Source: Alphaproteobacteria bacterium 46_93_T64
GTDB taxonomy: Bacteria > Pseudomonadota > Alphaproteobacteria > Sneathiellales > Sneathiellaceae
NCBI GenBank assembly: GCA_002163135.1
Contig: MAAN01000026.1
Location: 1 to 54,144 of the forward strand
DNA length: 54,144 nt
Direction of reading: 5' to 3'
Position numbers and translations under genes: made by a program
Shown here: one piece after another, positions 18,532-52,618 of the stretch
How positions within the stretch are numbered: position 1 is the first letter of the stretch
Layout: every line of letters begins with the position of its first letter
Notes under the pieces: model-generated
The model's input: only the letters and a program-made list of their open reading frames with translations
Told to the model about the DNA's origin: nothing
The model's database searches: none

Positions 18532-19608
18532 CTATTTGGCGACGAAACCGTCCCAGCTGGCCATATAATCAAGGAAGCGAGAATTAAGGCCTTCATTTTC
18601 CAAATGCGCGCGTGTTACCGGCAAATCAATGGATGTGAAGTTTGTATCTGCTTCTAGCTTCTTCACAAAGTCATGATGAAGAATACCGGCGCGGCCAGCC
18701 ATAACGAAATCGGCACCGCCTTCAATGGCCTCACGGCAATCTGCGGCGCTCATGATTTTACCGGCTACCGCTAGTTTCACATCGCCACGATCGAGCTCTG
18801 TGAAATAACTCATCAGGCTTCGGCCTTTAAACTCTTCTTCTTCAGGGTCTTTTTTGAAATCCCAAAGTGACATATCCAGAAAATCAATTTTGCCATCCGC
18901 CAGTAGGCGTCGTGCAACTTCGATGACTTCTGCGATTTTCATTCCAAAACGTTCCGGTGATAAGCGAACGCTGACATTAAAATCATCGCGGCACCGGCTT
19001 CGAATGCCATCTATTATGTCGAAAATTATCCGCGCGCGGTTTTCAAGGGATCCACCATATTTATCATCGCGTTGATTAAGTTCGGGGCTTAAGAATTGAC
19101 ACAGTAGATATCCATGTGCGCCGTGAACTTCAACGCCGTCAAACCCTGCTTTTTCTGCGCGGATGGCTCCCAGAATGAAGTCTTCTATCAATTGATCGAC
19201 TTCTTCAGTACTAAGCGCCCGTGTCCCATATTTTTCGAGCGCAGATGCCGAAACAGGTTGCACGCCTGTGAGCTCTTTAGATGCCCGCATACCGCCGTGA
19301 TAAAGCTGTGCAATGGCAATGGATCCCCCTTCTCTAATACCGTTCGCAAGGCGCGTTAGCCCTGGAAGTAGATCATCAGAAAAGAAACCGAGTTGTCCCG
19401 GAAACCCTTTGCCGCCAGCCTGTACATGGGCTGCGCAAGTCATGGTCAAACCAAAGCCTGCATTGGCTCGCATGGTAAGCCAGTTATACTCATCATCCGA
19501 TAGATGACCGTCTTCATGGCTTTGCCAATTGGTGATTGGGGCCATGACGACACGGTTTTTCATGGCTGGGCCATGGGAGAATTTTATAGGATCAAATAGT
19601 GAATTCAT
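18532..19608 (-). CDS. NADH:flavin oxidoreductase, Old Yellow Enzyme family
   Basis: A 358-residue single-domain FMN TIM barrel that reduces activated alkenes, enals or nitro compounds with NAD(P)H. Landmarks: KNRVVMAPITNW at the start, an AQLYHGG stretch near residue 102, and the catalytic histidine pair in VHGAHGYLLCQFLSP near residues 160-174. YGGSLENRAR follows at about 185. There is no Fe-S or second flavin domain, unlike the two large flavoproteins at 39-43 kb. Its 3' end has a decayed second copy 2.9 kb away (15651-15745). It converges on the AhpD-like gene and diverges from an alpha/beta hydrolase gene over 191 bases. Confidence 0.92.
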   Translation of the reverse strand: MNSLFDPIKFSHGPAMKNRVVMAPITNWQSHEDGHLSDDEYNWLTMRANAGFGLTMTCAAHVQAGGKGFPGQLGFFSDDLLPGLTRLANGIREGGSIAIAQLYHGGMRASKELTGVQPVSASALEKYGTRALSTEEVDQLIEDFILGAIRAEKAGFDGVEVHGAHGYLLCQFLSPELNQRDDKYGGSLENRARIIFDIIDGIRSRCRDDFNVSVRLSPERFGMKIAEVIEVARRLLADGKIDFLDMSLWDFKKDPEEEEFKGRSLMSYFTELDRGDVKLAVAGKIMSAADCREAIEGGADFVMAGRAGILHHDFVKKLEADTNFTSIDLPVTRAHLENEGLNSRFLDYMASWDGFVAK

Positions 19609-24195: not shown

Positions 24196-25167
24196 TTATG
24201 CAAATGCTTTAAAACGATTGTTTATAATCTCGCTAGCTTCATTCATGATATTATCTACAAGTTGCTGACAGCTTGGGATATCATGGATCAGACCTGCTAC
24301 CATGCCGCAGCTCCATGCCCCCGCTTCCATTTCCCCGTCAATCATAACTTTTGGATAAACACCAGCGACCAATTCTTTGATATCTTCAATGGTCATAGCA
24401 TCGCCTTTACCGCTTTCCATATCCATGATCCTCTGAACTGGCTCATTGAGCAATACGCGTTCTGTATTACGAAGTGGGCGCATAATTAGTCGAGTATCAA
24501 GCTCGGAGGCCTTTACCAGTGCGTCTTTAACATTTTGATGAACGGGAGCTTCTTTGGTTGCAATAAAACGTGTTCCCATATTTATCCCATCGGCACCAAG
24601 TGCGAGCGCGGCAACAAGCTGTTTACCGTTCCCTATTCCGCCGGATGCAACGAAAGGAATTGATAGCTCTTCTGCCGCGCGAGGAAGCAGGATCATGTTT
24701 GGGATATCATCTTCGCCCGGATGTCCTCCACATTCAAACCCATCAACACTTACCGCGTCACAACCGATTTTTTCGGCCTTCAACGAATGACGTACAGATG
24801 TACATTTGTGAATGACTGTGATCCCTGCATCTTTCAGGGCTGGCATATAAGCCTCTGGGCTCCGACCTGCGGTTTCAACGATTTTGACGCCGCCGTCAAC
24901 GATTGCTTTGATATATTCAGGGTATGGCGGGGCCATAAAACCGGGCAAAAATGTCAAGTTCACACCAAATGGCTTGTCTGTCATGTCTTTGCAACGCGCA
25001 ATTTCATTTGCAAGATCTTCAGGTGTTTTTTGCGTGAGACCGGTAATAATCCCTAAGCCACCAGCGTTCGAGACGGCTGCCGCGAGTTCAGCAAATCCGA
25101 CATAATGCATGCCGCCCTGAATGATTGGATGTTCAATATTGAATAGCTCGGTAATTTTTGTTTTCAT
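24196..25167 (-). CDS. nitronate monooxygenase / NPD-like FMN protein
   Basis: A 323-residue FMN TIM barrel of the 2-nitropropane dioxygenase family. The N-terminal IQGGMHYVGFAELAAAVSNAGG, the GGHPGEDD loop near residue 150 and the phosphate-binding SGGIGNGKQLVAALALGADG near 175 are clear. Members oxidise alkyl nitronates or act as quinone or enoyl-ACP reductases (FabK); the family alone does not separate these. It is a single gene bounded by the terminator at 24140-24168. Confidence 0.88.
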   Translation of the reverse strand: MKTKITELFNIEHPIIQGGMHYVGFAELAAAVSNAGGLGIITGLTQKTPEDLANEIARCKDMTDKPFGVNLTFLPGFMAPPYPEYIKAIVDGGVKIVETAGRSPEAYMPALKDAGITVIHKCTSVRHSLKAEKIGCDAVSVDGFECGGHPGEDDIPNMILLPRAAEELSIPFVASGGIGNGKQLVAALALGADGINMGTRFIATKEAPVHQNVKDALVKASELDTRLIMRPLRNTERVLLNEPVQRIMDMESGKGDAMTIEDIKELVAGVYPKVMIDGEMEAGAWSCGMVAGLIHDIPSCQQLVDNIMNEASEIINNRFKAFA

Positions 25168-39232: not shown

Positions 39233-41302
39233 TTATTCTTCGAAATACACTCTGTCATGTTTTAAGGGGTTATCCCGGTCAATATTGGCATCGAGCTCTC
39301 GCGCATATTTATGTCCGGAGTAAACTGCTGACGCAATAATTGCGGGGGCTTCGCAATCGCCAATTCTTTTGATCGATTTCGGGGCATTCTCAATGCCGGT
39401 ATCTATTTTCCCAAGGATCGCTTGATAGAGCGCATCCTTTGGGATGCGTGCGGTTACCAATACAATTGATTGACACTCTATCTCCTGCACCTGACCACTA
39501 TACTCACAGCTTATTGACGCTTTATTTCCGTCACATGACATCAAATTGTGAGCGGTAATCAGAGTTACCCCCAGTTTCAGAAGTTGGGTCTTTGCGCGCC
39601 AACGGTCATAGGTATATCCGCCCCACTCTGACACAACATCTGAGGGTGTCACCAATGTCACAGGCAAGCCTTTAGCCCGTACAAGTTCGGCGATTACGGT
39701 ACCCATATAATAGTGTTCGTCATCAAAAATTATCGTCGGGCCAGTTGGAAGGCGACCTGACATGATATCATCGGGCGTAAAGATTTGGGCCTGCGGTCCA
39801 AGCGATGCAATACCAGTGCGATTGGCGTTTCCATACCCGTCAGCGCGCCAGCTGGATCCAGTTGCAAGGACAATGTGATCCGCACCGATTTCCAGAACGT
39901 CTTCCGCCGTCAATTTGCTTTCACGGAAAACCTCAACATTGCTCATTTTTTCAATTTGTTGGATGCGATAATCGCGGACCCGTCCCCACTCGGCTAATCC
40001 CGGCAGTTTCGCTTCACGTAAAACTCGGCCACCAAGCTCGCGAGTTGCTTCTGCGAGCATTGTACGATATCCCCGCTGCCCCAAGGCCCGGGCACACTCA
40101 AGACCCGCAGGACCTGCGCCAACAACCAGTATTTTCGCTTCAGATCCTCTGACATCAATTTTTTCAGGATGCCAGCCGCGTCGCCATTCTTCACTCATCG
40201 TCGGATTTTGCGTACACCGAACGGGCACTCCCTTGCCGTCACCAGTATAGCAGATGTTACATCCAATACATTCCCGGATATCTTCAGGCCGTCCTTCTTC
40301 GATTTTTCTTGGTAAAAACGGATCAGCGATAGAGGGCCGGGCAGCACCAATGAAATCAACAATACCGCGCTTGATTTGCGATGCCATCGTATCAGGAGAG
40401 GTAAAGCGCCCAACGGAAACCACCGGTTTGCTTGTGATAGACTTGATGTAAGAAATATAGGGTTCTAACGAGCCTTCCTGAACATATCGGGACAGCCCCA
40501 TTTCATAAGAATAGTCACTTATATTGATGTCCCACAGATCCGGAAGTTCTCCCAGTATTTCAAACATCTCACGGGTCTCGCCAGGCATTAGGTTGCCATC
40601 TCCAGCGCCGCCACCATTGGTTTCGGCAGAGAAGCGAACGGCTACCGCCATGGTATCCCCAACAGCCTCTTTGGTATCTTCAATGATTTCCCGGATCAAT
40701 CGTACTCGGTTCTCGACCGATCCCCCATATTCATCCGTGCGGGTATTTATGGTCTTGGATAGAAACTGTGACAAAAGATAGTCATGCGTAGCATAGACAT
40801 AGACAATATCAAAACCCGCTTCTTTCGCCCTCAGGGCTGCATTTCGGTGCCAACGGCGAGTTTCACGAATATCTTCCTTATCCATGGCCCGCGTCTGAAA
40901 CGGATTACGTTCGGTGTTGGGCTGGCTGACAACTCCCAGAGCCACTTCACGGGTTGCCAAATTGGGCATCCGTGCTCCGCCAATACATAGTTCCACTCCC
41001 GCCAAAGCACCATGTGCATGAACTTTCTCTGTCATCAAACCATGCGCCTTGATATCGCCCTTGTCCCATAAGGACGCGCTCACATAGGGCAGATCATCCG
41101 ACGAAGGGTGAACGGAACAATACTCAGTACAAACCACCCCCCAGCCGCCTTCAGCTTTCACTTCTCGCAAACCGGCAAGCGTACGCGGCCGTAACCAGCC
41201 ACTTCCAGTGCAATGAGGGACTTGGTAGAACCGGTTTTTGGCTGTCACGGGGCCAATTTTCATTGGCTCGAACAAAATGTCGTAACGGGGATCCCGTGTC
41301 AT
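39233..41302 (-). CDS. trimethylamine dehydrogenase-type Fe-S flavoprotein (paralogue 1)
   Basis: A 689-residue enzyme collinear with trimethylamine dehydrogenase (TMADH). The N-terminal TIM barrel has Cys31 in FYQVPHC, equivalent to the TMADH cysteine that binds FMN covalently, and Tyr61 (TEYCSVHP) equivalent to TMADH Tyr60 of the aromatic bowl. The catalytic Tyr/His stretch is YVYATHDYL near residue 175. The 4Fe-4S ligands lie in CIGCNICYTGDGKGVPVRC. Two Rossmann parts follow, with VVGAGPAGLECA near 393. It would oxidatively N-dealkylate a tertiary or similar amine to an aldehyde plus a smaller amine. It is the last gene of the seven-gene operon, 24 bases after its paralogue. Confidence 0.9.
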   Translation of the reverse strand: MTRDPRYDILFEPMKIGPVTAKNRFYQVPHCTGSGWLRPRTLAGLREVKAEGGWGVVCTEYCSVHPSSDDLPYVSASLWDKGDIKAHGLMTEKVHAHGALAGVELCIGGARMPNLATREVALGVVSQPNTERNPFQTRAMDKEDIRETRRWHRNAALRAKEAGFDIVYVYATHDYLLSQFLSKTINTRTDEYGGSVENRVRLIREIIEDTKEAVGDTMAVAVRFSAETNGGGAGDGNLMPGETREMFEILGELPDLWDINISDYSYEMGLSRYVQEGSLEPYISYIKSITSKPVVSVGRFTSPDTMASQIKRGIVDFIGAARPSIADPFLPRKIEEGRPEDIRECIGCNICYTGDGKGVPVRCTQNPTMSEEWRRGWHPEKIDVRGSEAKILVVGAGPAGLECARALGQRGYRTMLAEATRELGGRVLREAKLPGLAEWGRVRDYRIQQIEKMSNVEVFRESKLTAEDVLEIGADHIVLATGSSWRADGYGNANRTGIASLGPQAQIFTPDDIMSGRLPTGPTIIFDDEHYYMGTVIAELVRAKGLPVTLVTPSDVVSEWGGYTYDRWRAKTQLLKLGVTLITAHNLMSCDGNKASISCEYSGQVQEIECQSIVLVTARIPKDALYQAILGKIDTGIENAPKSIKRIGDCEAPAIIASAVYSGHKYARELDANIDRDNPLKHDRVYFEE

Positions 41303-41326
41303 ATAAAAAGCTCCAACAAAGATTGA

Positions 41327-43393
41327 TCAGGCGTCTGCCAGTTGCGATAATTCACGCCGGAAAGGCACATTGTCGTGCTCCGGCTCATTTAACATGCGTG
41401 CATAGCGATGGCCGCTGTAAACAGCCGCGGCAATCGTTCCAGGGGCTAAACAGTCACCGATACGTGTAACTGATTTATTTCCGGCGGATGAGAGGGAAGC
41501 TGATTTTTCCATCAGCTGATAATAAAGATCATCCTCAGGGAGCCTTGCCGTGACCATCAGAACTGAAACGCACTGATAGGTTTTAGGGCGATTGGTATAG
41601 ACGCAACCAAGCTCAACCTTATCCTTAGCAATAGATGTGATGTTATGAAGGGGGATAATTTCAACACCAATTTCGATCAAACGCGTCTGAATTCGCTCTT
41701 GCTCCAATGTATTGTGGGTCCAGTGGGATACATCTGCGGCGGGGGTTACAAGAATAACATCAATATCATCCTTGCGCAGCTTTTCAGCCATTATTCCGCC
41801 CATGTAATAATGATCATCGTCGAAAATAATGACCGGCCCTGTTATCTCGCACCCTGCGATAACATCATCCGGGGTGAACACATTATCGCCGTCACTGCCC
41901 AAAACAGCGGTTCTGTTTTTTCTGCCAACACCATCTTTGCGCCATTTTGATCCTGTTGCCAAAACCACATGATCGGCCCCAAATTCAAGGATATGTGCTG
42001 CGTTCAACCTGCTATCCAAAAAGAGTTCGACGTTGAGCATGTTGAGGATTTGACCTTCGCGATAATCACGAACGCGTCCCCATTCGGCCAGTCCCGGCAG
42101 GCGGCTTTCATCTTTGACCCGTCCGCCAATTTCGGTCGTTGCCTCGACAATTGTGACCGAATAGCCGCGTTTGCCAAGCGCCTGAGCGCATTCAAGGCCA
42201 GATGGCCCCGTTCCAACAATCAGGACGGACTCGTCTGTTGTTTTCTTCGCGATCCGCTCAGGGTGCCAACCCTTTCGCCATTCTTCGCCTGCCGTTGGAT
42301 TTTGAGTGCACCGCATAGGCGTCGACAGAAAATCACCGCTAACGCAAATATTACACCCTATACACTCGCGTATATCGTCAACGCGTCCTTCTTCGATTTT
42401 TCGGGGCAGAAACGGATCAGCGATTGAGGGCCGTGCAGCCCCAATCAAATCAAGTACTCCTCGTTTTACGAGAGATACCATCGCATCGGGAGAGGTGTAT
42501 CGCCCAACCCCAACAACAGGTTTGCTAGTTATTGTTTTGACGAATGAGATAAAGGGTTCCTGATTTCCCATTTCACTGAACCGAGATGTGCTGGAATCAT
42601 TGGCCCAATCGCTAACATTGACGTCCCATAGGTCAGGTTCTTCCGCTAACCTTTCTACAAAGTCTCGCCCTTCCCCCAGGCTGGATAGGCCAGCAGATCC
42701 CATTAATTCATCAACCGCATAACGAACGACGACCGCGCATGTGTCTCCAACAGCGTCTTTGGTTTCTTCAAGAATTTCCCTGAATAACCTTATGCGGTTT
42801 TCAAAGCTTCCCCCATATTCATCAATACGCTGGTTATGTCGCGGTGACATGAAATGCATGGGAACTGATAGATCATGCCCCGCATACACATAGATGATGT
42901 CGAACCCTGCTTTTTTGGATCGTTTGGCCGCATTTACATACCAGTGCCTGAGATTTTTTATGTCTGTTTTATCCATCATGCGGGCCTGAACAGGATGATA
43001 ATCTTCAACGGGGCGATGGCTGGGCGCCATAGGAATTTCCCGGCTGTAGAGGTTGGCTGCTGTGAACCCGCTATAGGCTGGTTCAATCCCTGCGAGACTA
43101 CCGTGTTCATGAATTTTTTCATTCATGCGGGCAAAGACAGGGATATCTGCGTCATCCCATAACCGCCCTTCAATGATCGGACTATGTTCGGATGACGGGT
43201 GAATTTCCACTTCTTCAGTACAAACAACCGCCCAGCCGCCTTCGGCTTTTACGCTCCTCATTTCGGCCATACTAGATGGATATGCGTGCCCCATGCCATT
43301 GCAGTGTGGAACTTGGTAAAAACGGTTTTTTGCCGTAACCGGACCGATTTTCACAGGTTCGAAAAGTATGTCATAGCGTGGATCTTGGGGCAC
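41327..43393 (-). CDS. trimethylamine dehydrogenase-type Fe-S flavoprotein (paralogue 2)
   Basis: A 688-residue paralogue of the next gene, with the same layout: Cys31 in FYQVPHC, YVYAGHDLS near residue 175, Fe-S cysteines in CIGCNICVSGDFLSTPMRC, then VGTGPSGLECA. The residue matching TMADH Tyr60 is Glu61 here (TEEVEIHP), so the substrate pocket must differ; an acidic residue there suits a substrate with an extra positive charge. The start is GTG 43393. It follows the TetR gene by 14 bases. The two paralogues may act on different substrates, on successive steps, or form a mixed dimer. Confidence 0.9.
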   Translation of the reverse strand: MPQDPRYDILFEPVKIGPVTAKNRFYQVPHCNGMGHAYPSSMAEMRSVKAEGGWAVVCTEEVEIHPSSEHSPIIEGRLWDDADIPVFARMNEKIHEHGSLAGIEPAYSGFTAANLYSREIPMAPSHRPVEDYHPVQARMMDKTDIKNLRHWYVNAAKRSKKAGFDIIYVYAGHDLSVPMHFMSPRHNQRIDEYGGSFENRIRLFREILEETKDAVGDTCAVVVRYAVDELMGSAGLSSLGEGRDFVERLAEEPDLWDVNVSDWANDSSTSRFSEMGNQEPFISFVKTITSKPVVGVGRYTSPDAMVSLVKRGVLDLIGAARPSIADPFLPRKIEEGRVDDIRECIGCNICVSGDFLSTPMRCTQNPTAGEEWRKGWHPERIAKKTTDESVLIVGTGPSGLECAQALGKRGYSVTIVEATTEIGGRVKDESRLPGLAEWGRVRDYREGQILNMLNVELFLDSRLNAAHILEFGADHVVLATGSKWRKDGVGRKNRTAVLGSDGDNVFTPDDVIAGCEITGPVIIFDDDHYYMGGIMAEKLRKDDIDVILVTPAADVSHWTHNTLEQERIQTRLIEIGVEIIPLHNITSIAKDKVELGCVYTNRPKTYQCVSVLMVTARLPEDDLYYQLMEKSASLSSAGNKSVTRIGDCLAPGTIAAAVYSGHRYARMLNEPEHDNVPFRRELSQLADA

Positions 43394-43407
43394 AGATTTT
43401 CTCTTTG

Positions 43408-44046
43408 TCAGGGATGTGAAAAATGTTCTGGAAACGTATCAGCCAGAAACGAAAAACAGTCGTTACGCGCCTGTTTTCGGCTGCTCGATTTGGGATAAAG
43501 CAAATAACTCAGCCATAGCCCATCGATCATAGCTATAAGGTTTCGAGCCTTTGATGCTGGATCAATCCCCTTATATCCCCCTTCATCCGCAATCTGTTGA
43601 CAAAGGCGGTGGATTTCATTGGTACGTTGCTTATCAAAATTGTTATGAATTTTAAGATAAGAAGGGCGTTGCTTGGCCTGTCCCCAAAAAGCAAACCAAA
43701 CAGCTATTTTTTTCTGTGTGAAAATCGCGGCTTCGAAATCAACTTCAATCAATGCTGTAAGTTGAAGGCTTGCCTCTCCCCCTGCTTTCTCCAATGCTTT
43801 TGACCAACGTTCATAATGTTCCGTTGCCAGAAATCCGAGTGTTTCAATAAAAAGCGTTTCTTTGTTCGTAAAATGAAAATTTACGATACCTTGCGACAGT
43901 TTTGCCCCTTTTGATACGGTTGCAATCGTTGTCCCTGAAAAACCTCGAGTCGCAATGGATTCAATAGTCGCGTCGATTAACTGCTGACGCCGAACTTCTT
44001 TTGAAGCTGTACGTCCACTTCGAACTGTTTTTATATTGGCTTCCAT
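43408..44046 (-). CDS. TetR family regulator, BetI-like
   Basis: A 212-residue repressor. The HTH lies at about residues 18-62 (RRQQLIDATIESIATRGFSGTTIATVSK, then KLSQGIVNFHFTNKETL). The C-terminal region (WFAFWGQAKQRPSY near 115, LIAMIDGLWL near 170) matches BetI, the choline-responsive repressor. AAGGA precedes ATG 44046 by seven bases. Its place inside an ABC transporter - flavoprotein operon implies self-control of the system by a quaternary or methylated amine, or its aldehyde. Confidence 0.9.
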   Translation of the reverse strand: MEANIKTVRSGRTASKEVRRQQLIDATIESIATRGFSGTTIATVSKGAKLSQGIVNFHFTNKETLFIETLGFLATEHYERWSKALEKAGGEASLQLTALIEVDFEAAIFTQKKIAVWFAFWGQAKQRPSYLKIHNNFDKQRTNEIHRLCQQIADEGGYKGIDPASKARNLIAMIDGLWLSYLLYPKSSSRKQARNDCFSFLADTFPEHFSHP

Positions 44047-44057
44047 TCGATTTATCC

Positions 44058-45188
44058 TTATTGCGCTTGACTATGGCTGGCATCCTGCTTGAGTAGCACA
44101 ACTGCAGCGTCTGGCCAACCAAGCCATACTTGTCCCTTGTGATCGCGAATATTTATATCTGCAGAAGCAGAGTTTTGCGCTGACACAGCAATTGGTTGGT
44201 CAATCCCATTAACTGCGATATGGAAGTAGCTTCGTTCACCCAAGTAAGCCGTCGAGATCATGTTCCCTTCGATAAAATTACCGACCCCATTTGGGGCGCC
44301 GATACTAAGTGAAAATTTTTCAGGTCGTACTGCAATCTGGGCCATTTCCCCGACGCCAAAATTCGTTGTATCCTTTATGCCTTTAACAATTCCCAAGGCT
44401 CCGGCATCAACAATAATCTGATCATTGTCTACCGATACAACTCGCCCATCGAAAAAATTCATGGTGCCAATAAACGCTGCGACTTCGCGGGTGATAGGTT
44501 TCTCATAAAGTTCCGTTGGACTGTCTATTTGCAGAGTTCTACCTTTGGACATAACGGCAATTCTGTCCGACATGGTCAGTGCTTCTTCTTGATCATGGGT
44601 TACAAAAACAAAGGTAATTCCAACTGACCGTTGAAGCGCGCGCAGTTCCATCTGCATTTGTTCGCGAAGCTGTTTGTCCAGCGCACCAAGAGGCTCGTCC
44701 AACAGAAGTACTTTGGGGCGTTTTATCAAAGCTCTTGCCAGGGCAACTCGTTGTCGTTCACCTCCTGATAATTCATGAGACCGACGTTTCCCATAACCGG
44801 GTAATTTGATCATCTCGAGCATTTCCTCAACTTTTTTGTCAAGTTCGGCTTGTGGTAATCTCTCCTTTCGCATGCCATAAGCAATGTTGTCATGGATATT
44901 CAAATGCGGAAAAATTGCGTAATTTTGAAACACCATATTTACCGGTCTTTGATGCGGCGGAACCGCAGACATACTCTGACCATCAATTACGATTTCACCG
45001 GATGTCGGTGTTTCGAACCCGGCAAGCATACGCAACAATGTGGTCTTACCGCAGCCAGAGGGGCCCAAAAGGGAGAAAAATTCTCCGCCGCCGATCTCCA
45101 TGGAAACGTCACTAACGGCTGCTACTGATCCAAAACTCTTACTCACATTCTGGATAGAAATAAAACTACTGTTGTTACTCATACTCAT
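44058..45188 (-). CDS. ABC transporter ATP-binding protein (PotA-like)
   Basis: A 376-residue ATPase of the spermidine/putrescine (Pot) class. Walker A GPSGCGKTT lies near residue 40, the signature LSGGERQRVALARAL near 143, Walker B VLLLDEPLGALD near 161 and the switch His (FVTHDQEEA) near 200. A C-terminal TOBE-type domain occupies about 290-370. It overlaps the permease gene by ATGA at 45185-45188. It powers uptake together with the two permeases and the binding protein. Confidence 0.93.
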   Translation of the reverse strand: MSMSNNSSFISIQNVSKSFGSVAAVSDVSMEIGGGEFFSLLGPSGCGKTTLLRMLAGFETPTSGEIVIDGQSMSAVPPHQRPVNMVFQNYAIFPHLNIHDNIAYGMRKERLPQAELDKKVEEMLEMIKLPGYGKRRSHELSGGERQRVALARALIKRPKVLLLDEPLGALDKQLREQMQMELRALQRSVGITFVFVTHDQEEALTMSDRIAVMSKGRTLQIDSPTELYEKPITREVAAFIGTMNFFDGRVVSVDNDQIIVDAGALGIVKGIKDTTNFGVGEMAQIAVRPEKFSLSIGAPNGVGNFIEGNMISTAYLGERSYFHIAVNGIDQPIAVSAQNSASADINIRDHKGQVWLGWPDAAVVLLKQDASHSQAQ

Positions 45189-46000
45189 ACTCCGCCTACA
45201 CGTTTGTAAGGCATTCCTCGATTGCGAATCCAGTGCGCCGCAAAGACGACAACAAAAGAAACCATAAGGATAATGGAACCCAAGGCCAGAACACCGGGCA
45301 ACTTGTCAGGGAAGCGCAGTTGCGACCACATATAAATTGGCAATGTAGGTTCTGTTCCAGAAAGAAAAAAGGCGATGATGAACTCGTCAAAAGAGATGGT
45401 GAAACACAACAGGAAACTTGCAATTATGCCCGGAAAGACAACGGGGAACGTCACACGCCAGAATGTCCACCACATATTTTCCCCAAGATCGGAAGACGCT
45501 TCCTCTATGGACGCATCAAATCCTTCAAATCTTGGGATCATCGTCACCATCGCAAAAGGGACACATACAATGATATGACCTAATGTCACTGTATAAAGAG
45601 ACAGTCGCACGCCAAGTTCGCTCAGCAGGATTAATAGGGAAACACCGAATATTATACCCGGTATCACCAATGGGAGCATGATGAAAGCAACCACGGGTCC
45701 GCGGCCAGGCATACGATACCGAGTAACCGCTTTCGCTGCAAATATTCCTAAAAAGGTTGCCACAATTGAGGTTACAACGCCCACTTTAACACTGTTGGCT
45801 AAGGCTGCGAGCATCGGTTCATTGTTGAACATGACTTCATACCATTTGAACGTAAATTCCTTGAGCGGAAACGCAATAAAAATGGAGTCGTTGAAGGAAA
45901 ACAAGGGAAGGAAAAGGACCGGTACATAGAGAAAGGCCAGATACAACAATGCATATACATGTAGCGGTCGATTGGGACGATTAATATAAGACATACTCAT
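45185..46000 (-). CDS. ABC transporter permease (PotC-like)
   Basis: A 271-residue membrane permease with six helices and the EAA loop IEEASSDLGENMWWTFWRVTFPVVFPGIIAS, here EEASSDLG near residue 165, which docks on the ATPase. It overlaps both neighbours by four bases (ATGA), showing tight translational coupling. Confidence 0.93.
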   Translation of the reverse strand: MSMSYINRPNRPLHVYALLYLAFLYVPVLFLPLFSFNDSIFIAFPLKEFTFKWYEVMFNNEPMLAALANSVKVGVVTSIVATFLGIFAAKAVTRYRMPGRGPVVAFIMLPLVIPGIIFGVSLLILLSELGVRLSLYTVTLGHIIVCVPFAMVTMIPRFEGFDASIEEASSDLGENMWWTFWRVTFPVVFPGIIASFLLCFTISFDEFIIAFFLSGTEPTLPIYMWSQLRFPDKLPGVLALGSIILMVSFVVVFAAHWIRNRGMPYKRVGGV

Positions 46001-46959
46001 GTAATTCGCTCCGTCACTTTCCGGCTTATTATAACAAATACAACGGAGAACAAGGCGACCGTGACCATCAATGCAATCGCCAGTGCGGCGCCCATGGGCC
46101 AGTCATTAACCTTGCCAAATTGCGCAGAAATCAAATTTGCGAGCATGATCCCATCGGGTCCGCCCAGCAGTGTCGGCGTGATGTAATCACCAACCGTCGG
46201 TATGAAGATTATCAAGGCAGCAGCGATAACGCCTGGAAGCGACATGGGAAAAGTAATTCGAAAAAATCGCCTGACTGGACCATCTCCCAGATCAGTTGCA
46301 GCCTCTAGAAGGGACCGGTCAATCTTTTCCAGCGACACATAAATAGGGAGAATTGCAAAAGCTGACCAAGCATGCGTTAACGTAATTACCACGGCCAACG
46401 GACTGTATAAAAGAAACTCCAACGGCTGATCAATAAGCCCCATTCCGATGAGGCCCGAATTGATAACGCCGTTATAGCCTAGTATGATCTTCCATGAAAA
46501 AACCCGCAGTAGATAACTTGTCCAAAAGGGCAGCGTCATCAGGATGATCCAAACCATCTTATGGCGGTGCACATGGAACGCGACAAAATAGGCCATCGGA
46601 TATGACAATATGACCGTTGCTAATGCACAGCCGCCAGATATCAGTATAGATCGAGCCAACAGTGCTTTATAAATAGGTTGTTCCGCAACGTTGAAATAGT
46701 TAGCTAAGGTCAAGCTCTTATCAAACTCGAACCCATGCTGTGTCCATAGGCTCATGCCCACCAAAATAAATAGGGGAACGCAGATGCCGATGATCATAAT
46801 CAAGAGTGTCGGTGACAATAATAAATAGCCACGAAGCGCTTCAAAACGCATGAGTAAACTGGAAAGCCACCCGCCGCTTTTTGTCGATCTCGGAAGGGTG
46901 CTTCGGAGTGTGGCAGTATTATCGGTCACTAACGACATCCTTCTACAAAATTCATACAA
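45997..46959 (-). CDS. ABC transporter permease (PotB-like)
   Basis: A 320-residue permease with a cytoplasmic N-terminus of about 35 residues, six or seven helices and the EAA loop LEAATDLGDGPVRRFFRITFP near residue 235. It pairs with the PotC-like subunit. It begins 118 bases after the binding protein gene; the gap holds two hairpins, so its expression is probably lower than that of the binding protein. An earlier upstream Met is possible (the protein starts MYEFCRRMSLV). Confidence 0.92.
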   Translation of the reverse strand: MYEFCRRMSLVTDNTATLRSTLPRSTKSGGWLSSLLMRFEALRGYLLLSPTLLIMIIGICVPLFILVGMSLWTQHGFEFDKSLTLANYFNVAEQPIYKALLARSILISGGCALATVILSYPMAYFVAFHVHRHKMVWIILMTLPFWTSYLLRVFSWKIILGYNGVINSGLIGMGLIDQPLEFLLYSPLAVVITLTHAWSAFAILPIYVSLEKIDRSLLEAATDLGDGPVRRFFRITFPMSLPGVIAAALIIFIPTVGDYITPTLLGGPDGIMLANLISAQFGKVNDWPMGAALAIALMVTVALFSVVFVIISRKVTERIT

Positions 46960-46978
46960 TTATCGGGGTGGTTATGTG

Positions 46979-47007
46979 CCACTTGGTTTCATGATCCAGC
47001 CAAGTGG
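46979..47007. other. inverted repeat between binding-protein and permease genes
   Basis: CCACTTGG (46979-46986) and CCAAGTGG (47000-47007) pair perfectly around 13 bases. It lies on the permease side of the neighbouring terminator-like hairpin and may stabilise the processed mRNA or act as an operator. Confidence 0.45.
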
Positions 47008-47028
47008 TTTTCCGCACAAAAGTCTAAA

Positions 47029-47062
47029 AAATATGGCAGAGTCTCCCCCCTCTGCCATATTT
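47029..47062 (-). terminator. terminator/attenuator inside the transport operon
   Basis: A perfect 13-base stem, AAATATGGCAGAG (47029-47041) and CTCTGCCATATTT (47050-47062), with a C-rich loop. On the minus strand it is followed by a T-run (TTTTTT). It lies just after the binding-protein stop, the usual place for partial termination that yields more binding protein than permease. Confidence 0.8.
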
Positions 47063-47077
47063 CTCTCCACTAACTTA

Positions 47078-48202
47078 TTAGAACCCAGCTTTAATTTTTT
47101 CGAATTCCTGATTCATGCTGGTTTCGAATTCCTGAGATTGTGGGCTCATGAATTTTCCAGTGCTCAGAACTTCAGCGGGATTTCGATTGAGACCCAATTC
47201 GTCCAGTTGTTTATCGGTAAATTGCGCAAATGATTTAACATTTGAATGGCCATACCCATTCTCTCCTATCAACCACTTTCCGGTTTCAACACTCAACATC
47301 GAATTTACGATGTCATAAGCTTTGTCCATTTGTGGTGCGTCTTTACGTATCATCGCACCGCAAACCCAAGTAAGCGCTCCTTCTTTCGGATTAGCGAATT
47401 TAACTTTCACTCCGGCAGTTTTCAACTTAACTGCCGAGCTATTCCAAGTCATAGCCGCGACAATTTCACCGGATGCGAGCGCTTGCTCTAGAGTGGTTTC
47501 ATCATCCGTGTAAGTTCGAATTAGAGGTCGTTGCTTACGCATTAATTCCGCTGTTTTCTCAAATCCAACTTTACTGGAGATATCTTTAAAATCAACGCCG
47601 GCATAAATCGCTCCGCACCACCAAGCATCCCCAGCTGAGGCAAGTACGGCCAAACGTCCTTTGTACCGTTCATCCCATAACATTCCCCAAGATTCCTCTT
47701 TACCTTCAAGGTCAAACAGGTCCGTGCGATAGGTAACTGACGTCTGTCCCCAATCAAAAGGCGCCATATAAGGCTGACCGTTCACCATAATGCCATCAAG
47801 TTGATAGAGCTCTGGTATGACGTCGCCCCAGTTTGAAAGCTTGTCTGTATCCAAGGGCTGGAATAGTCCTGATGCAATCCAACGCGGCACATCAGCATTA
47901 CAAGGGTGTGAGACATCAACCATAAATCCACTGCGCATTTTAGTCAGAGCCTCTTCGGAGCCGCCAAAAGTTGCTAAATTCGGAGCTTCACCATATTTTT
48001 TGATATATTCTCCAAAAAGTGCTGGATCATCGTAACCACCCCAGGTGAAATACGTCGCCTGATCCGCGGCCGCTGCACCGGCAGGTCGCGACATATATGG
48101 CATCGCAACAATTCCAACTCCTACCCCTAGAAGTGACTTTGAAAAGGCGCGCCTACTCAACTTCCCTGATTTAACCGCATGTAATTGATCGACTACATCC
48201 AT
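47078..48202 (-). CDS. ABC transporter substrate-binding protein (PotD-like), Tat-exported
   Basis: A 374-residue type II periplasmic binding protein of the polyamine/opine class. A twin-arginine signal LSRRAFSKSLLG at residues 16-27 leads to a hydrophobic stretch and a cut near residue 46 (AAA). The mature start TYFTWGGYDDPALFGEYIKKYG is like PotD. Conserved family patches include FDWGQTSVTYRTDL near 144 and AMTWNSSAVK near 250. GGGAGG nine bases before ATG 48202 is a good ribosome site. It is the first gene of the operon; the Tat signal suggests it folds before export. Ligand probably cationic. Confidence 0.92.
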   Translation of the reverse strand: MDVVDQLHAVKSGKLSRRAFSKSLLGVGVGIVAMPYMSRPAGAAAADQATYFTWGGYDDPALFGEYIKKYGEAPNLATFGGSEEALTKMRSGFMVDVSHPCNADVPRWIASGLFQPLDTDKLSNWGDVIPELYQLDGIMVNGQPYMAPFDWGQTSVTYRTDLFDLEGKEESWGMLWDERYKGRLAVLASAGDAWWCGAIYAGVDFKDISSKVGFEKTAELMRKQRPLIRTYTDDETTLEQALASGEIVAAMTWNSSAVKLKTAGVKVKFANPKEGALTWVCGAMIRKDAPQMDKAYDIVNSMLSVETGKWLIGENGYGHSNVKSFAQFTDKQLDELGLNRNPAEVLSTGKFMSPQSQEFETSMNQEFEKIKAGF

Positions 48203-48493
48203 AATTAATTTCCTCCCAGTAATTACGTCCCCGTTAAAACAATTTTTTGCTGTACCCTTTTCGAATACGATTTAGAAAATTCGAATAGTCCCTGTGCAAT
48301 CAAATATGCATTTGTTTTTCGAATTGACTGTATGTACGTTCATTCAATATAGTTATAAAAATCTAACCGAGTCAAGCCAATCGCCAGCCGGCGTTAAACA
48401 GGAACTTAGAAATGGGCGACCCACCTGCATAGAGACTCGTGAAAGGGTGCGAGGAGATGCAACACGAAGCGGGTCAGATAGAAAGGCTAAGTT
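48203..48493. promoter_or_regulatory. divergent regulatory region with a dyad (candidate TetR/BetI operator)
   Basis: The 290 bases between the binding-protein operon and the bicupin operon should hold both promoters. The 18-base near-palindrome TGTATGTACGTTCATTCA (48329-48346; two mismatched pairs) resembles BetI-type sites. Parts of it, TATGTACG and CATTCAATA, recur upstream of the ALDH gene. It is the best candidate target of the TetR/BetI-like protein of this operon. Confidence 0.5.
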
Positions 48494-49258
48494 ATGCATT
48501 CAATGAAAATTTGTCGATTTAGTCCAAATGGGCCCGAAGACGTGGGCATGCAGATCTGGGACCCGATTGATCCTTCAGAGTTAGAAACCGGCAAGCCAGT
48601 TCAACGCGGCCACGTTTATCATGAGGATACTGCGCACGGATATATGGCGGGTGTTTGGGATTGCACCCCTATGACAGTAAAGTTTGCCCCCTATCCGGTC
48701 AACGAATTCATGTTTTTACTTGAAGGGTCCGTGACCATGAGACTTGGTGATGGCTCAGAGGTAACCATTAATGCCGGTGAAACTTTCATCATACCAAAAA
48801 GCCTTCCATGTCAGTGGAAACAAGAAGGATATGTACGTAAATTTTTTGCTATTTTTGAGAACCCCGGAATACCCGCGACACAAAATATACTGGATCACAA
48901 AATTATTCTTCCCCAACCCTCAGGCCCTGTAGGGGGAATGCAACAGCTAAAAATACAGGATGCCGAGGGCTTTCTGGGCTCTGTTCCTATTCAGCAAAAG
49001 CACGTGTACTTTTCAGATAGCACTGATCAATTTTCCGTTGGGGTGACTTACAGCGCTCCGTTCGAAACAGTCAGCAAACCGGCTGCGAAAAGTGAAATGA
49101 TGATCCTTCTACAAGGAACGGCGATTATCACAGATGACTATGGAAGTGAGTTCAATGTTAATGCGGGTGATACAATCTATATTCCCAAAGGCGCCGCGTA
49201 CCGTTGGAAAAGTACAGAATATGTTCGCCAAATATACTGTTGTTTCGATCCCGCCTGA
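48494..49258 (+). CDS. bicupin protein (two cupin_3-like domains)
   Basis: A 254-residue protein with two cupin barrels at about residues 50-130 and 165-250. Each has the motif pair E-F/M-M-x-L-L-E/Q-G and G-D/E-T-x-x-I-P-K (NEFMFLLEG with NAGETFIIPK, and SEMMILLQG with NAGDTIYIPK). These are EutQ/DUF861-like single-strand cupins, in which metal-ligand histidines are mostly lost: no clear His-x-His is visible, so a ligand-binding rather than an oxygenase role may fit. ATG 48494 or 48503 could be the start. It is divergent from the transport operon and first of three genes. Confidence 0.8.
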   Translation: MHSMKICRFSPNGPEDVGMQIWDPIDPSELETGKPVQRGHVYHEDTAHGYMAGVWDCTPMTVKFAPYPVNEFMFLLEGSVTMRLGDGSEVTINAGETFIIPKSLPCQWKQEGYVRKFFAIFENPGIPATQNILDHKIILPQPSGPVGGMQQLKIQDAEGFLGSVPIQQKHVYFSDSTDQFSVGVTYSAPFETVSKPAAKSEMMILLQGTAIITDDYGSEFNVNAGDTIYIPKGAAYRWKSTEYVRQIYCCFDPA

Positions 49259-49301
49259 CCGGACATTTTGTTTTACTGATCCAAAACAAGGAAATTTGTA
49301 A

Positions 49302-49787
49302 GTGACAACCAAGAACGCCCAATATCGGAATACTTTACTCGAATATTTCGAAGAAGAGGTTATGGGAGAGATCTATTTTCGCGAGCTGATGTACAATTTC
49401 AGCCGAGATGATGAGCGGAAAAAGCTCACCTTGCTCGCCAATGTCGAACGAACAACGGCAGAAATTTTACACCCCATCATAGATCGCTACGGACTGATAC
49501 CGCGCTCAGACGCTGAATTGGAACCACTTGCCGCGCAATGGACCGAGCAACGTAAACATCTGAATTGGCAAGGTCTAATGCAGGGTATGGTTACAGAATA
49601 TCCCGTCTATGTCGATCTCTTCAAAAAATTTGAAACGCAGGCCCCACAACGCGACATTCCAGCCTTAAAAAGACTAACGGCTCACGAAATTGCTCTCGTC
49701 GATTTTGCTAAACTAGAGATTGCTGGGAATCCTGACAGCCTAATGCCGATCCACGATTTTCTTGGCATATCTTTTCCGACTGAATAA
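49302..49787 (+). CDS. small helical, ferritin-like or heme-oxygenase-like protein of unknown function
   Basis: A 161-residue, nearly all-helical acidic protein. Possible metal residues are Glu23 (MGEIYF), Glu54-x-x-His57 (AEILHP), Glu99 (TEYPVY) and His128-Glu129 with Glu139 (AHEIALVDFAKLE). The spacing partly fits a four-helix diiron bundle, but the second E-x-x-H is not complete. The start is GTG 49302 with AAGGAAATTT upstream. It lies 43 bases after the bicupin gene and 15 bases before a small membrane protein gene. I do not recognise a named family. An accessory oxidase, a lyase or a structural role is possible. Confidence 0.6.
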   Translation: MTTKNAQYRNTLLEYFEEEVMGEIYFRELMYNFSRDDERKKLTLLANVERTTAEILHPIIDRYGLIPRSDAELEPLAAQWTEQRKHLNWQGLMQGMVTEYPVYVDLFKKFETQAPQRDIPALKRLTAHEIALVDFAKLEIAGNPDSLMPIHDFLGISFPTE

Positions 49788-49802
49788 GGACATATCTGTA
49801 TT

Positions 49803-50033
49803 ATGACACTATCCCGCCTAATCAAATATACCTTCGCCCTTAGTTTGATCGGGACGTTTAGTGGAATTCTTTATTACCAATATTCCGTCCGGCAGGGACA
49901 ACAAGGTTTACAGGAACAAACTCAGGAATGCAGCAGTTGTACAAGGCGCCACACTTCCATGACACGTGCCATGGAAGCCCGCAAACTTACAAAACAGCTT
50001 TTAATGAAAACCGTGAATTCGCCGGAGCAATAA
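49803..50033 (+). CDS. small single-span membrane protein with a CxxC motif
   Basis: A 76-residue protein: a basic start, one hydrophobic helix at about 7-26 (IKYTFALSLIGTFSGILYY), then a polar Gln-rich segment and Cys43-S-S-Cys46 followed by RRH, and a basic tail. It lies 15 bases after the preceding stop, so operonic. The CSSC could bind metal or form a disulphide; it is not a CxxCH heme site. I recognise no family. The assignment as a gene rests on position, spacing, a clean membrane helix and the absence of another use for the sequence. Confidence 0.55.
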   Translation: MTLSRLIKYTFALSLIGTFSGILYYQYSVRQGQQGLQEQTQECSSCTRRHTSMTRAMEARKLTKQLLMKTVNSPEQ

Positions 50034-50088
50034 CGGCCATAAGGCGTTATCTACTCCGACTGTCTTCAAAATGGTTTGGCGTTGTACG

Positions 50089-51516
50089 CTATACTGGGAA
50101 ATGCAGGCTCTTCACTTCCTGAAAATCTTCTAAACCCAGCATGCCCCCTTCTCTGCCATTTCCAGAATGTTTGTATCCGCCAAACGGTGTGCCATAGTTA
50201 AATCCACCGCCGTTTATATGGACAGCTCCGGCTCTAAGCTGGCTGGCCACTCTTTCTGCCCGATCCTTGTCACCCGTCTGCACATATGCCGCGAGACCAT
50301 AGGGCGTATCATTGGCAATTTCGATGGCTTCTTCTTCTGTCTGAAAAGGTATGATTGTTAGAACAGGGCCGAAAATCTCTTGCTGTGCAATTGCCATATC
50401 GTTCGTCGCATCAGCGAAAATTGTTGGACGAACCCAATATCCAGCCTCAAATCCTTCTGGTTTCCCAGGTCCTCCGACTAAGACACGCGCGCCTTCGTCG
50501 ATCCCCTTTTCGATCATTGCCTGAACACGACCAAATTGAATATCACTGACCAGCGGTCCCAGATGATCTCCCTCCAGCGCGGGATCATCCACTTTTTGGT
50601 TTTCGGCTACTCTTTTTGCAATTTCAAGAACATCGTCATAGCAGCTGTGCTCGACCAATAACCTTGTTGGTGCGTCGCAGGATTGTCCCGTATTCAGAAA
50701 GCAAAACTGCACGGACTCTGTTATGCATGCTTCCAGATCGCAATCAGCAAACACCAAATTTGGTGATTTACCGCCTAACTCAAGGGTTACGCGTTTAACC
50801 TCATCTGCAGCATCTTTGGCAACCGCCGTCCCCGCACGAGTGGATCCGGTGAAAGACATCATCGCTACATCTGGATGTCTGGACAATGTCGCGCCGGCAA
50901 CGAGCCCATCTCCTTGAATCATATTGAATACACCTGCAGGGACACCGGCATCATGTAAAAGTTCCGTGTATAGAACCGAAGATAAAGGCGTGAATTCAGA
51001 TGGTTTTAAAACACAAGTGCAACCCGCCGCAATTGCCGGTAATACTTTTAAGGTTATTTGGTTTATCGGCCAATTCCAGGGTGTGATGAGACCGCAAACG
51101 CCGTATGACTCACGGATAAGAACATCGCCATTGCTCAATGATTGGCGAGTTTGTTGTTCATTCAACGCCTCAATAAATCCTTTTAAATGACCGACAGCTG
51201 CATCTGCTTGCATTTCAAGTGACATCGTCATTGGCGCACCCATTTCCAATGAGATGGCTTTGGCAATATCCGGTAATCTTTGTTCCGATAACTTTAGTAT
51301 GCTTTCCAATAAGGAGAGACGCTCTTCCTTACTCGTTCTGGAATAAGTCTGAAACGCTTTCTTCGCCGCCGCTACGGCTAAATTAACATCGTCCTCAGTC
51401 GCCAGCAAAATGATGTCGATGACGCTTTCATCTGCTGGGTTTATCACCGTCATTTCATTGGTGGAGGCAGGTTCAATCCACGCGCCGTTAATATAAAACT
51501 TCCTCATGTTGGACAT
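50089..51516 (-). CDS. aldehyde dehydrogenase (betaine-aldehyde dehydrogenase-like)
   Basis: A 475-residue NAD(P)-dependent aldehyde dehydrogenase with Asn148 (TPWNWPINQ), Glu246 (LELGGKSPN) and the catalytic Cys280 (NTGQSCDAPTR). The usual GQ.C motif is intact. I start at ATG 51516 because GGGAGG lies six bases upstream; an upstream GTG at 51531 has no such signal. It would oxidise the aldehyde made by the flavoproteins or imported as such. A dyad related to the one in the transport operon promoter lies about 110 bases upstream. It converges on the three-gene bicupin operon and follows a LysR gene. Confidence 0.92.
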   Translation of the reverse strand: MSNMRKFYINGAWIEPASTNEMTVINPADESVIDIILLATEDDVNLAVAAAKKAFQTYSRTSKEERLSLLESILKLSEQRLPDIAKAISLEMGAPMTMSLEMQADAAVGHLKGFIEALNEQQTRQSLSNGDVLIRESYGVCGLITPWNWPINQITLKVLPAIAAGCTCVLKPSEFTPLSSVLYTELLHDAGVPAGVFNMIQGDGLVAGATLSRHPDVAMMSFTGSTRAGTAVAKDAADEVKRVTLELGGKSPNLVFADCDLEACITESVQFCFLNTGQSCDAPTRLLVEHSCYDDVLEIAKRVAENQKVDDPALEGDHLGPLVSDIQFGRVQAMIEKGIDEGARVLVGGPGKPEGFEAGYWVRPTIFADATNDMAIAQQEIFGPVLTIIPFQTEEEAIEIANDTPYGLAAYVQTGDKDRAERVASQLRAGAVHINGGGFNYGTPFGGYKHSGNGREGGMLGLEDFQEVKSLHFPV

Positions 51517-51622
51517 AGCGCCCTCCCTCACCGGCTTAATCGTTCAAAACCATCTGACATATGGTTGAATTTTCATTTGCCTAATTATCCGTAAAAAAAC
51601 TTGAAAAGATTATGTACGCGAA

Positions 51623-51636
51623 TGAATGACCATTCA
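51623..51636. promoter_or_regulatory. dyad upstream of the ALDH gene (candidate operator)
   Basis: TGAATGACCATTCA is a perfect 6-2-6 palindrome. The region (TATGTACG 51611-51618, CATTCAATA 51631-51639) shares both halves with the site at 48331-48349, but with exactly ten more bases between them. Confidence 0.5.
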
Positions 51637-51676
51637 ATAGGTATTCCCGTATTTTTGTGAATTGATATATGACACC

Positions 51677-52618
51677 TTACTTCTTTGCCCTATCGAGGCT
51701 GTGCTCTTGTTTTTCAACGGTACGTTTGAACCAATCGACTATTGCGCGAATAGTATCGGAATGCGGACCGTCCGTCCGATATTGTAAATAGTAAGCAGCC
51801 TCGCTATTGACGACGTTTGGCCCAACCTTTACCAGCGACCCGTCCTCGATCATTCGGTCCACCATGAAACGCCAGCCAAGAGCAACACCTTCTCCGTCTT
51901 GAACAGCCTTCAATAAAAATGGATAGGCGTCATACTGGAATACTTGTGCATGATCCTGCGCGTTTATGCCAAGGCTAGCAAACCAAATTGGCCAAGTGAC
52001 CTGTCCCGAATGGCGGACATCATAGTCCAGTAAGTTGGCTTTAAGGAGGGCCCTGGGATCGGAAGCGATATTTGGATTTTGGCGCAGATAATCCGGGCTG
52101 CAAACGGGAAAGGCTTCATCGGGAAACAGCGGAATACTGGGGCGGTCAGGAGCGAGTGACAGATCCCAGACCAATGCAATGTCGACCTGGTCCATGTCCA
52201 AGCTCTCCATCCAGTCGGCAGTGGCAATGCGTAAGCGCTTGTCCCCTAAAACAGCCTTCAATTGCGTTGACTGCGAAAGCAGCCAATTATCAGCAAATCC
52301 ATATGTGCAGGCGAGTACCAAGTCGCGATCACGGGTGAATTTTGATAATTGTTGCCATACAGATTCAGTATGTCCAAGCCCGATGGAAACCGCTTCTGCT
52401 AACTGCTTACCTTCGCTTGTTGGCTGAATTTGGTTGTTTTTCCGCCAAAAAAGTTGTTTTCCCAAGCGAGCCTCGAGTGTTGCTATATGCCGGCTTACAG
52501 TCGGCTGACTAAGCGATAGCTCAACACTGGCTTTCGTGAAACTTGAATGTCTTACCGCGGCTTCCAATACCAGTAACGCATTGAGAGATCCCGTTACGTT
52601 TTGAAAATATTTTTTCAT
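51677..52618 (-). CDS. LysR family transcriptional regulator (GcvA-like)
   Basis: A 313-residue LysR regulator. The HTH lies at about residues 12-70 (FTKASVELSLSQPTVSRHIATLEARLG). The effector domain ends PHSDTIRAIVDWF. It is on the same strand as the ALDH gene, 160 bases upstream of it, and may control it in addition to the TetR protein. ATG 52618 gives MKKYFQNVTG. Confidence 0.9.
   Translation of the reverse strand: MKKYFQNVTGSLNALLVLEAAVRHSSFTKASVELSLSQPTVSRHIATLEARLGKQLFWRKNNQIQPTSEGKQLAEAVSIGLGHTESVWQQLSKFTRDRDLVLACTYGFADNWLLSQSTQLKAVLGDKRLRIATADWMESLDMDQVDIALVWDLSLAPDRPSIPLFPDEAFPVCSPDYLRQNPNIASDPRALLKANLLDYDVRHSGQVTWPIWFASLGINAQDHAQVFQYDAYPFLLKAVQDGEGVALGWRFMVDRMIEDGSLVKVGPNVVNSEAAYYLQYRTDGPHSDTIRAIVDWFKRTVEKQEHSLDRAKK

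Follow-up and report, generated by a model that had tools for sequence, protein, structure and literature searches.

The 54,144-nucleotide contig MAAN01000026.1 of Alphaproteobacteria bacterium 46_93_T64 (here called the window; contig C9 of a 4.0-Mb genome) contains at positions 39233..51516 a gene cluster built around two flavoproteins, FMO_A and FMO_B, related to trimethylamine dehydrogenase (TMADH) and histamine dehydrogenase (HADH). The cluster also encodes a Pot-type ATP-binding cassette (ABC) transporter, a TetR regulator, a bicupin, an aldehyde dehydrogenase (ALDH) and two small proteins of 161 and 76 residues. The enzymes, the transporter and the regulator are of known kinds; what our analysis mainly adds is that the 161-residue protein, Ferr, is a putative ferritin-like partner of FMO_A. 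Family searches confirm the gene content and families proposed in the initial annotation, with every gene at the coordinates given below. The genes are not chance open reading frames, because relatives of each of them except ALDH are similarly arranged elsewhere.

39233..41302, minus strand: FMO_A, flavin mononucleotide (FMN)/[4Fe-4S] flavoprotein of the TMADH/HADH type (family search, tree, residues)
41327..43393, minus strand: FMO_B, second TMADH/HADH-type flavoprotein (structure comparison, tree, residues)
43408..44046, minus strand: TetR regulator, BetI-like (family models)
44058..45188, minus strand: Pot-type ABC ATPase (TIGR01187 potA subfamily model)
45185..46000, minus strand: PermC, PotC-like permease (score below the PotC cut-off)
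45997..46959, minus strand: PermB, PotB-like permease, TTG start as listed (score below the PotB cut-off)
47029..47062: perfect 13-bp inverted repeat between the genes for the substrate-binding protein (SBP) and PermB
47078..48202, minus strand: SBP, PotD/PotF-like
48327..48348: operator-like dyad in the divergent promoter region, holding TGTACGTTCATTCA
48494..49258, plus strand: bicupin, two Cupin_3 (EutQ-like) stretches
49302..49787, plus strand: Ferr, 161-residue ferritin-like helical protein (predicted fold)
49803..50033, plus strand: 76-residue protein with hydrophobic N-terminus and QTxECxSCTxRH motif
50089..51516, minus strand: ALDH (best model BADH)
51619..51640: operator-like dyad before ALDH, TGAATGGTCATTCA on the minus strand

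Both flavoproteins combine Oxidored_FMN and Pyr_redox_2 domains, the regulator has a BetI-type TetR_C_6 domain, and the transporter components are PotA-, PotB-, PotC- and PotD-like. The tight packing ascribed earlier to the minus-strand genes holds for most of them, with 4-base overlaps between PermB and PermC (45997-46000) and between PermC and the ATPase (45185-45188), and gaps of 11, 14 and 24 bases for ATPase-TetR, TetR-FMO_B and FMO_B-FMO_A. The SBP gene, however, is set off from PermB by 118 bases that include the 13-bp hairpin; this repeat is possibly an attenuator, with the binding protein made in excess of the permease.

The flavoproteins and the putative ferritin-like protein

We begin with the flavoproteins, for which solved structures of relatives exist. 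The nearest structure to FMO_A is HADH (PDB accession code: 3k30, 721 bits), and that to FMO_B is also HADH (6de6, 828 bits), followed by 6l6j, which we take to be 6-hydroxypseudooxynicotine dehydrogenase (Pno), and by TMADH; both proteins score higher with HADH and 6l6j than with TMADH. In TMADH, Cys30 is the attachment site of the 6-S-cysteinyl FMN and four Cys hold the [4Fe-4S] cluster, and by alignment of the sequence letters all five are kept in FMO_A and FMO_B. The TMADH substrate site consists of an aromatic bowl (Y60, W264, W355) and a triad (Y169, H172, D267). In TMADH numbering, FMO_A has C30, Y60, Y169, H172, Y174, Y264 and E267, and FMO_B has C30, E60, Y169, H172, L174, W264 and D267, both without W355. 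The aromatic bowl is thus incomplete in both proteins (Y/Y/gap in FMO_A, E/W/gap in FMO_B), while the triad is complete in FMO_B and fails in FMO_A, whose active site is altered from W264 to Y and from D267 to E. We did not adopt an ene-reductase activity of the old yellow enzyme (OYE) type as a reading, since the Cys that links the flavin, those of the cluster and Y169/H172 are the residues of amine dehydrogenases.

In a tree of 44 sequences, whose rows were chosen from bicupin- or flavoprotein-bearing genomes and are not exhaustive, FMO_A and six relatives form one clade (100/99) with all four references outside it. This clade persists when two further FMO_A-type sequences are added (SH-aLRT 99), and Y264 and E267 occur in all nine of its members, a pattern that points to a separate active-site subclass. 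FMO_B joins four relatives (from genomes G409, G405, G410 and G413) in another set (100/99), with the FMO_B of genome G433 placed elsewhere. Neither protein groups with the histamine dehydrogenases 3k30 and 6de6. The description of the two as twin TMADH-type flavoproteins therefore needs adjusting: both are of the TMADH/HADH type, but they belong to two separate clades and are closer to HADH and 6l6j than to TMADH.

Ferr had been described as a helical protein, and the analysis takes this further. Neither Ferr nor the 76-residue protein is matched by any Pfam or NCBIfam model, and sequence comparison of Ferr gives a best E value of 0.007 to Pfam families with unlikely names and chance-level matches to the PDB. 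The predicted fold is ferritin-like (pLDDT 95), and the predicted model and the VIA rows agree on a ferritin-like four-helix arrangement, with no Foldseek E value under 0.001. Across 21 Ferr sequences, E17, E19, E49, H128 and E129 are invariant. In the gammaproteobacterial metagenome-assembled genome (MAG) Cli_6 (G433, locus L161), FMO_A and Ferr are fused in a single frame of 845 residues with Ferr at the C-terminal end, and a second fusion of 850 residues occurs on a 1.6-Mb contig of G644 (locus L205), a genome of the same class as the window. Ferr is undescribed in the literature searched, and these features suggest that a known enzyme family has a partner not recognised before. Outside the module, Ferr relatives (L162, L164, L166) lie within about 4 kb of etfA-like genes and adjoin nitronate-monooxygenase-like genes, both named by eye.

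Recurrence in other genomes

Large parts of the cluster recur in six other genomes, including the gammaproteobacterial MAG. The initial annotation had asked for a neighbourhood search, and the bicupin and the 161-residue protein do co-occur elsewhere with the flavoproteins and the Pot-type transporter; for the 76-residue protein this extends to one relative in one other locus (L033). A bicupin profile scan of GTDB genomes gave 50 loci, many of them short, and nine of these (L035, L040, L044, L049, L052, L054, L057, L068 and L072) hold a TMADH-type flavoprotein of at least 600 bits.

The gene orders are as follows (// divides the two groups of genes at a locus, which are divergent in G405, G410, G409 and G283). 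In the Hyphomicrobiales MAG IP29b_bin.146 (G405), locus L033 reads TetR-ABC-PermC-PermB-SBP // bicupin-MAO-DUF6614-Ferr-small CxxC protein, the last being the relative of the 76-residue protein. The L033 contig ends at TetR, and FMO_A-FMO_B lie at the very end of another G405 contig, so that this is apparently the window gene order broken by assembly. The Rhodospirillales MAG SI075_bin47 (G410) has FMO_B-TetR-ABC-PermC-PermB-SBP // Ferr, where the contig ends. G409 (SI074_bin150) has Ferr-bicupin // TetR-FMO_B-FMO_A-MOSC, with a GCV_T+DAO protein and a choline-kinase-like one close by and no Pot-type transporter seen within 20 kb. G283 has Ferr-MAO // SBP-PermB-PermC-ABC-TetR-FMO_A with a single cupin nearby. 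On a fragment of G143, Ferr and MAO are accompanied by the end of an SBP gene, and G411 has Ferr, a different flavoprotein and a TetR of weak similarity (91 bits). Next to the G433 fusion are FMO_B and SBP // TetR (86.5 bits)-PermB-PermC-ABC, a bicupin 1.3 kb away, a MOSC protein and a 2Fe-2S ferredoxin. The G644 fusion adjoins FMO_B, MAO, a third OYE-type protein, DUF6614, a bicupin, a class III aminotransferase and a Pot-type transporter.

The neighbours elsewhere thus include several amine-related proteins: MAO, class III aminotransferase, the GCV_T+DAO protein, the choline-kinase-like protein and a Rieske oxygenase. The MAO-type amine oxidase and the DUF6614 protein accompany the module in both G405 and G644 (L033:5891-7579; L205:4329-5603 and 12202-12552), and the L033 MAO has, by eye, a twin-arginine-like N-terminus. 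Beside FMO_A in G405 (L102:7103-9664) are a MAO-type oxidase and a Rieske oxygenase. MOSC-domain proteins occur near FMO_A in two module loci (L161:3446-4535, with the 2Fe-2S ferredoxin, and L103:11799-12386); MOSC reductases act on N-hydroxylated compounds. A sibling cluster (L040, the same place as L019; L044, the same as L020; L049, L052, L054 and L072) carries one or two FMO_B relatives in view, an OpuAC-type (glycine-betaine-like) binding protein, a CaiD-like enoyl-CoA hydratase (below cut-off), two enolase-superfamily proteins and one or two bicupins, with a Rieske-like gene in G283 by our reading; it looks like another undescribed pathway, of betaine type.

The flavoprotein family itself is widespread, with a match at E 1e-200 in 43 of 385 class genomes. 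As controls, the stretches read around family flavoproteins outside the two clades (six loci: L105, L106, L108, L109, L208, L209) are free of Ferr, bicupin and PotB/C/D-like genes, and other module parts appear there only as distant ABC or LysR likenesses. For six of the nine members of the FMO_A clade, Ferr is either fused to the flavoprotein or encoded in its neighbourhood, in one case across a contig break. In the class sample, FMO_A of at least 950 bits occurs in three of the 385 genomes, all three with Ferr, which is present in 12 of the 385 (E 1e-10). The association has a Fisher p of 2e-5, or 7e-4 when the window's own genome is left out; the 950-bit line was set after the scores were seen (next best 858), and, with one family accounting for two of the three genomes, these values overstate independence. 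Starting from Ferr, for seven of 35 matches a module flavoprotein lies within the stretch seen or at the end of a partner contig (G000, G283, G405, G409, G410, G411, G433), in addition to the G143 fragment. A phylum survey finds Ferr in two of 398 genomes at E 1e-20, one being the window's own genome. Ferr occurs in 19 of 39 bicupin-bearing genomes as against 12 of 385 in the class sample, a comparison that is not clean: the two sets seem to overlap, and the 39 were picked by bicupin and include many relatives. A plasmid collection has 44 records with bicupin relatives and two with Ferr relatives; the three annotated plasmid regions inspected contain no module.

Transporter, regulation and accessory genes

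The Pot-type ATPase passes the TIGR01187 potA subfamily model (385.6 bits over 355.6), while PermB, PermC and SBP stay below the PotB, PotC and PotD cut-offs (197.6/348, 183.2/326 and 80.4/582 bits). D168, D257 and E36 are the ligand acids of PotD. The window SBP keeps W34, Y37, W229, W255 and Y293 of PotD and loses Y85 and all three acids. In the five SBPs of the window, G405, G410, G433 and G283 the same aromatic residues are kept (Y37 as W in G433), Y85 is absent, D168 has become S or A, D257 has become C and E36 has become G; E171 is D in all of them. The G644 SBP also has S at 168, but retains E36 and D257. Such a pocket may fit a substituted cation rather than a free diamine. A literature search for the PotD ligand residues returned one unrelated paper.

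The TetR regulator scores 118.3 bits with NF001978 (cut-off 118) and 117.7 with TIGR03384 (cut-off 201.3). The relation proposed between the dyad before ALDH and that between SBP and bicupin holds: both share ATTGAATGNNCNTNCATNC, which is exact at these two places only in the 4.0-Mb genome, and, the pattern being derived from the two sites, this shows specificity and not discovery. Related dyads occur elsewhere, under motifs drawn up after inspection of these promoters. TGACYRGTCA is present in the divergent promoters of L103, L107 and L121 and twice in L161, out of 23 matches overall in 1.99 Mb of partly overlapping loci; TGAACGTTCA is found in the L033 and L205 promoters and TGTACGTTCA in the window; and the 14-mer TGAATGGTCATTCA that precedes the window ALDH recurs in the L205 divergent promoter. 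Neither dyad motif is in L206 or L158, L158 having its own 16-bp perfect palindrome, and the L122 stretch has no good palindrome. A regulon search of the window's own genome with up to two mismatches gives 24 places versus seven for the reversed control, a count into which a palindrome-like site enters two times, as 48327 and 48330 do for a single site; the sole one-mismatch site (C32:61581) is inside an open frame.

Metal-dependent cupins depend on conserved His/Glu of two cupin motifs. Because no His is invariant or even 90% conserved across 26 aligned bicupins (E71 is invariant), a metal-cupin enzyme is unlikely, and a binding, sensing or structural role would fit the alignment better. The single relative of the 76-residue protein, in L033, has a 15-residue match; it was the one relative found by a motif search of the loci and by eye among CxxC frames in 12 Ferr neighbourhoods, with L205 not scanned and L107 ending inside Ferr. 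The best model for ALDH is BADH (434.2 bits, far below the cut-off of 668.6). What links ALDH to the system, where the initial annotation had placed it, is only its operator-like dyad, and ALDH and the 76-residue protein are the weaker members. A LysR regulator (51677-52618) adjoins ALDH, its best model being a choline-sulfate utilisation regulator (185.2 of 324.8 bits). Farther off in the window, a nitronate monooxygenase (24196-25167) and a short OYE-type flavoprotein (18532-19608) are unlinked to the module. Ten matches to GCV_T, an aminomethyltransferase domain, exceed 100 bits in the window's own genome, and seven of the ten fall in frames of at least 800 residues, a hint of amine demethylation in the source organism.

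Proposed function and comparison with known systems

We start from the conserved genes, their synteny, the fusions, the clade with its residue pattern, the predicted fold and the recurrent dyads, and infer the substrate class, reaction, metal, electron flow and repression. On balance we lean towards a patchily distributed amine-catabolism module that would take up a methylated or otherwise substituted amine and cleave its C-N bonds oxidatively, step by step, with FMO_A working together with Ferr. The Pot-type importer, with its aromatic, acid-poor pocket, would take up a substituted, most likely N-methylated, amine. FMO_B and FMO_A, as divergent FMN/[4Fe-4S] dehydrogenases, would then remove carbon groups or the amine itself, yielding aldehydes (formaldehyde or larger), of which ALDH may take the larger. 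FMO_A would stand in a tight complex with its dedicated Ferr, a carboxylate-rich and possibly di-metal protein that may accept electrons, handle oxygen or guard the cofactor in the redox chemistry of FMO_A. The BetI-like TetR would repress the divergent promoter and ALDH until the amine is present. The earlier proposal of an amine uptake and oxidative breakdown system is thereby largely upheld, the substrate class being the inferred part, and its view that the substrate is not simply choline or trimethylamine appears to fit the flavoprotein and SBP residues. Such a module may mark a route of substituted-amine degradation in uncultured Rhodospirillales, Hyphomicrobiales and gammaproteobacterial lineages.

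Several observations weigh against this reading. Helical bundles score high easily in structure comparison, which is a caveat on the Ferr fold. ExxH pairs are the canonical metal motif of ferritin-like di-iron sites, and in Ferr they are absent (E49 and E129 are invariant, but neither is followed by a His at the third position), which leaves the presence of a metal uncertain. ALDH is not seen in the other module loci. The G644 transporter is distantly similar (SBP 49 bits), its SBP retains the two acids noted above, and no TetR relative was seen in its 20 kb; substrate and control may therefore differ there. The FMO_A genes of G413 and G359 are on contigs shorter than 6 kb, both genomes carrying Ferr at another place, and G406, also of the FMO_A clade, has no Ferr in its MAG. 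The remaining Ferr matches of the 35 are in different contexts, four of them seen with short flanks only, and Ferr is found in none of 23 same-genus genomes.

The alternatives differ in what they make of the substrate and of Ferr. A betaine-type substrate (carnitine, proline betaine or the like), with the quaternary group opened elsewhere and the flavoproteins removing later methyls, is a tentative possibility that draws on the BetI-like regulator, the aromatic SBP pocket, the OpuAC protein and CaiD-like hydratase of the sibling clusters, and the G405 Rieske protein, whose best model is GbcA at 130.6 bits, far below the cut-off of 670. The window operon, however, contains no Rieske oxygenase, and the sibling clusters have no PotB/C/D-like gene in the stretches seen and flavoproteins on another branch. 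An ordinary polyamine as substrate, with the locus a polyamine-oxidation locus of unusual enzyme set, we regard as distinctly unlikely: the Pot-type transporter speaks for it, as do the MAO and the class III aminotransferase of the G405 and G644 loci, but D168 is S/A in 6/6 module SBPs and D257 and E36 are C and G in 5/6, and the window's own genome gives no MAO match at E 1e-10 in a search run with no positive control. That this is an ordinary HADH-like cluster with accidental neighbours agrees with the wide distribution of the family; the recurrent synteny, the two fusions and the dyads at divergent promoters make it very improbable.

With regard to Ferr, it may have no redox activity and act as a chaperone or maturation factor for the cysteinyl-FMN or [4Fe-4S] of FMO_A, or in oxygen protection. 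We consider this role unlikely. In its favour, a scaffold would account as well as a redox partner would for a dedicated small helical protein that two genomes fuse to the enzyme, and the canonical ExxH motif is missing; yet the five invariant Glu and His residues would be needless in a mere scaffold, and no such partner is named for Pno in the accessible part of the published account (PMC7688666). At the opposite extreme, FMO_A and Ferr would act as a single catalyst, an amine oxidase or oxygenase with flavin, [4Fe-4S] and di-metal centres, in which electrons would pass from the amine through cysteinyl-FMN and cluster to a carboxylate di-metal site of Ferr that reduces or activates O2. This we hold to be decidedly improbable; if true, FMO_A would be independent of electron-transfer flavoprotein (ETF), unlike its known relatives, and would represent a new class of amine-oxidising enzyme.

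Compared with known systems, our literature searches, for which most subscription papers were outside reach, found no characterised orthologous cluster and no description of the module, and a search for 6L6J by name gave nothing relevant. FMO_A and FMO_B are 46% and 52% identical to 6l6j, which has Ala where both have the flavin-linking Cys (position 30). As far as the part of the source available to us goes, Pno cleaves its amine with ETF as acceptor and its gene belongs to a nicotine cluster that also contains TetR, ABC and ald genes; ETF use is reported for TMADH, DMADH and Pno alike, and for Pno the text names neither a ferritin-like protein nor a cupin nor Pot-type uptake (PMC7688666). 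PotABCD and PotFGHI polyamine importers share the transporter type and the potA-model ATPase with the window, and differ from it in permeases and SBP far below the cut-offs and in the lost PotD acids. Ferritin, Dps, bacterioferritin and YciE/YciF are 4-16% identical to Ferr in the compared rows, with no sequence match and with ExxH absent from Ferr. HADH (3k30, 6de6) is alike in architecture, flavin-linking Cys, four cluster Cys and Y169/H172, and is 54-55% identical to FMO_B and 48% to FMO_A; both nevertheless lie outside the HADH branch, FMO_A with its Y264 and E267. TMADH (1djn), at 41-42% identity, shares Y60, Y169, H172 and Y174 with FMO_A, but is separated by a long branch, by W355 in both proteins, by W264 and D267 in FMO_A and by Y60 in FMO_B. 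TMADH-type enzymes are the textbook route of amine oxidation, from flavin to iron-sulfur cluster to ETF. In the literature searched, a recurrent, twice-fused ferritin-like partner is outside this picture; the module gives the unnamed Ferr family a biochemical context, and the fusions are compact proteins for testing the coupling.

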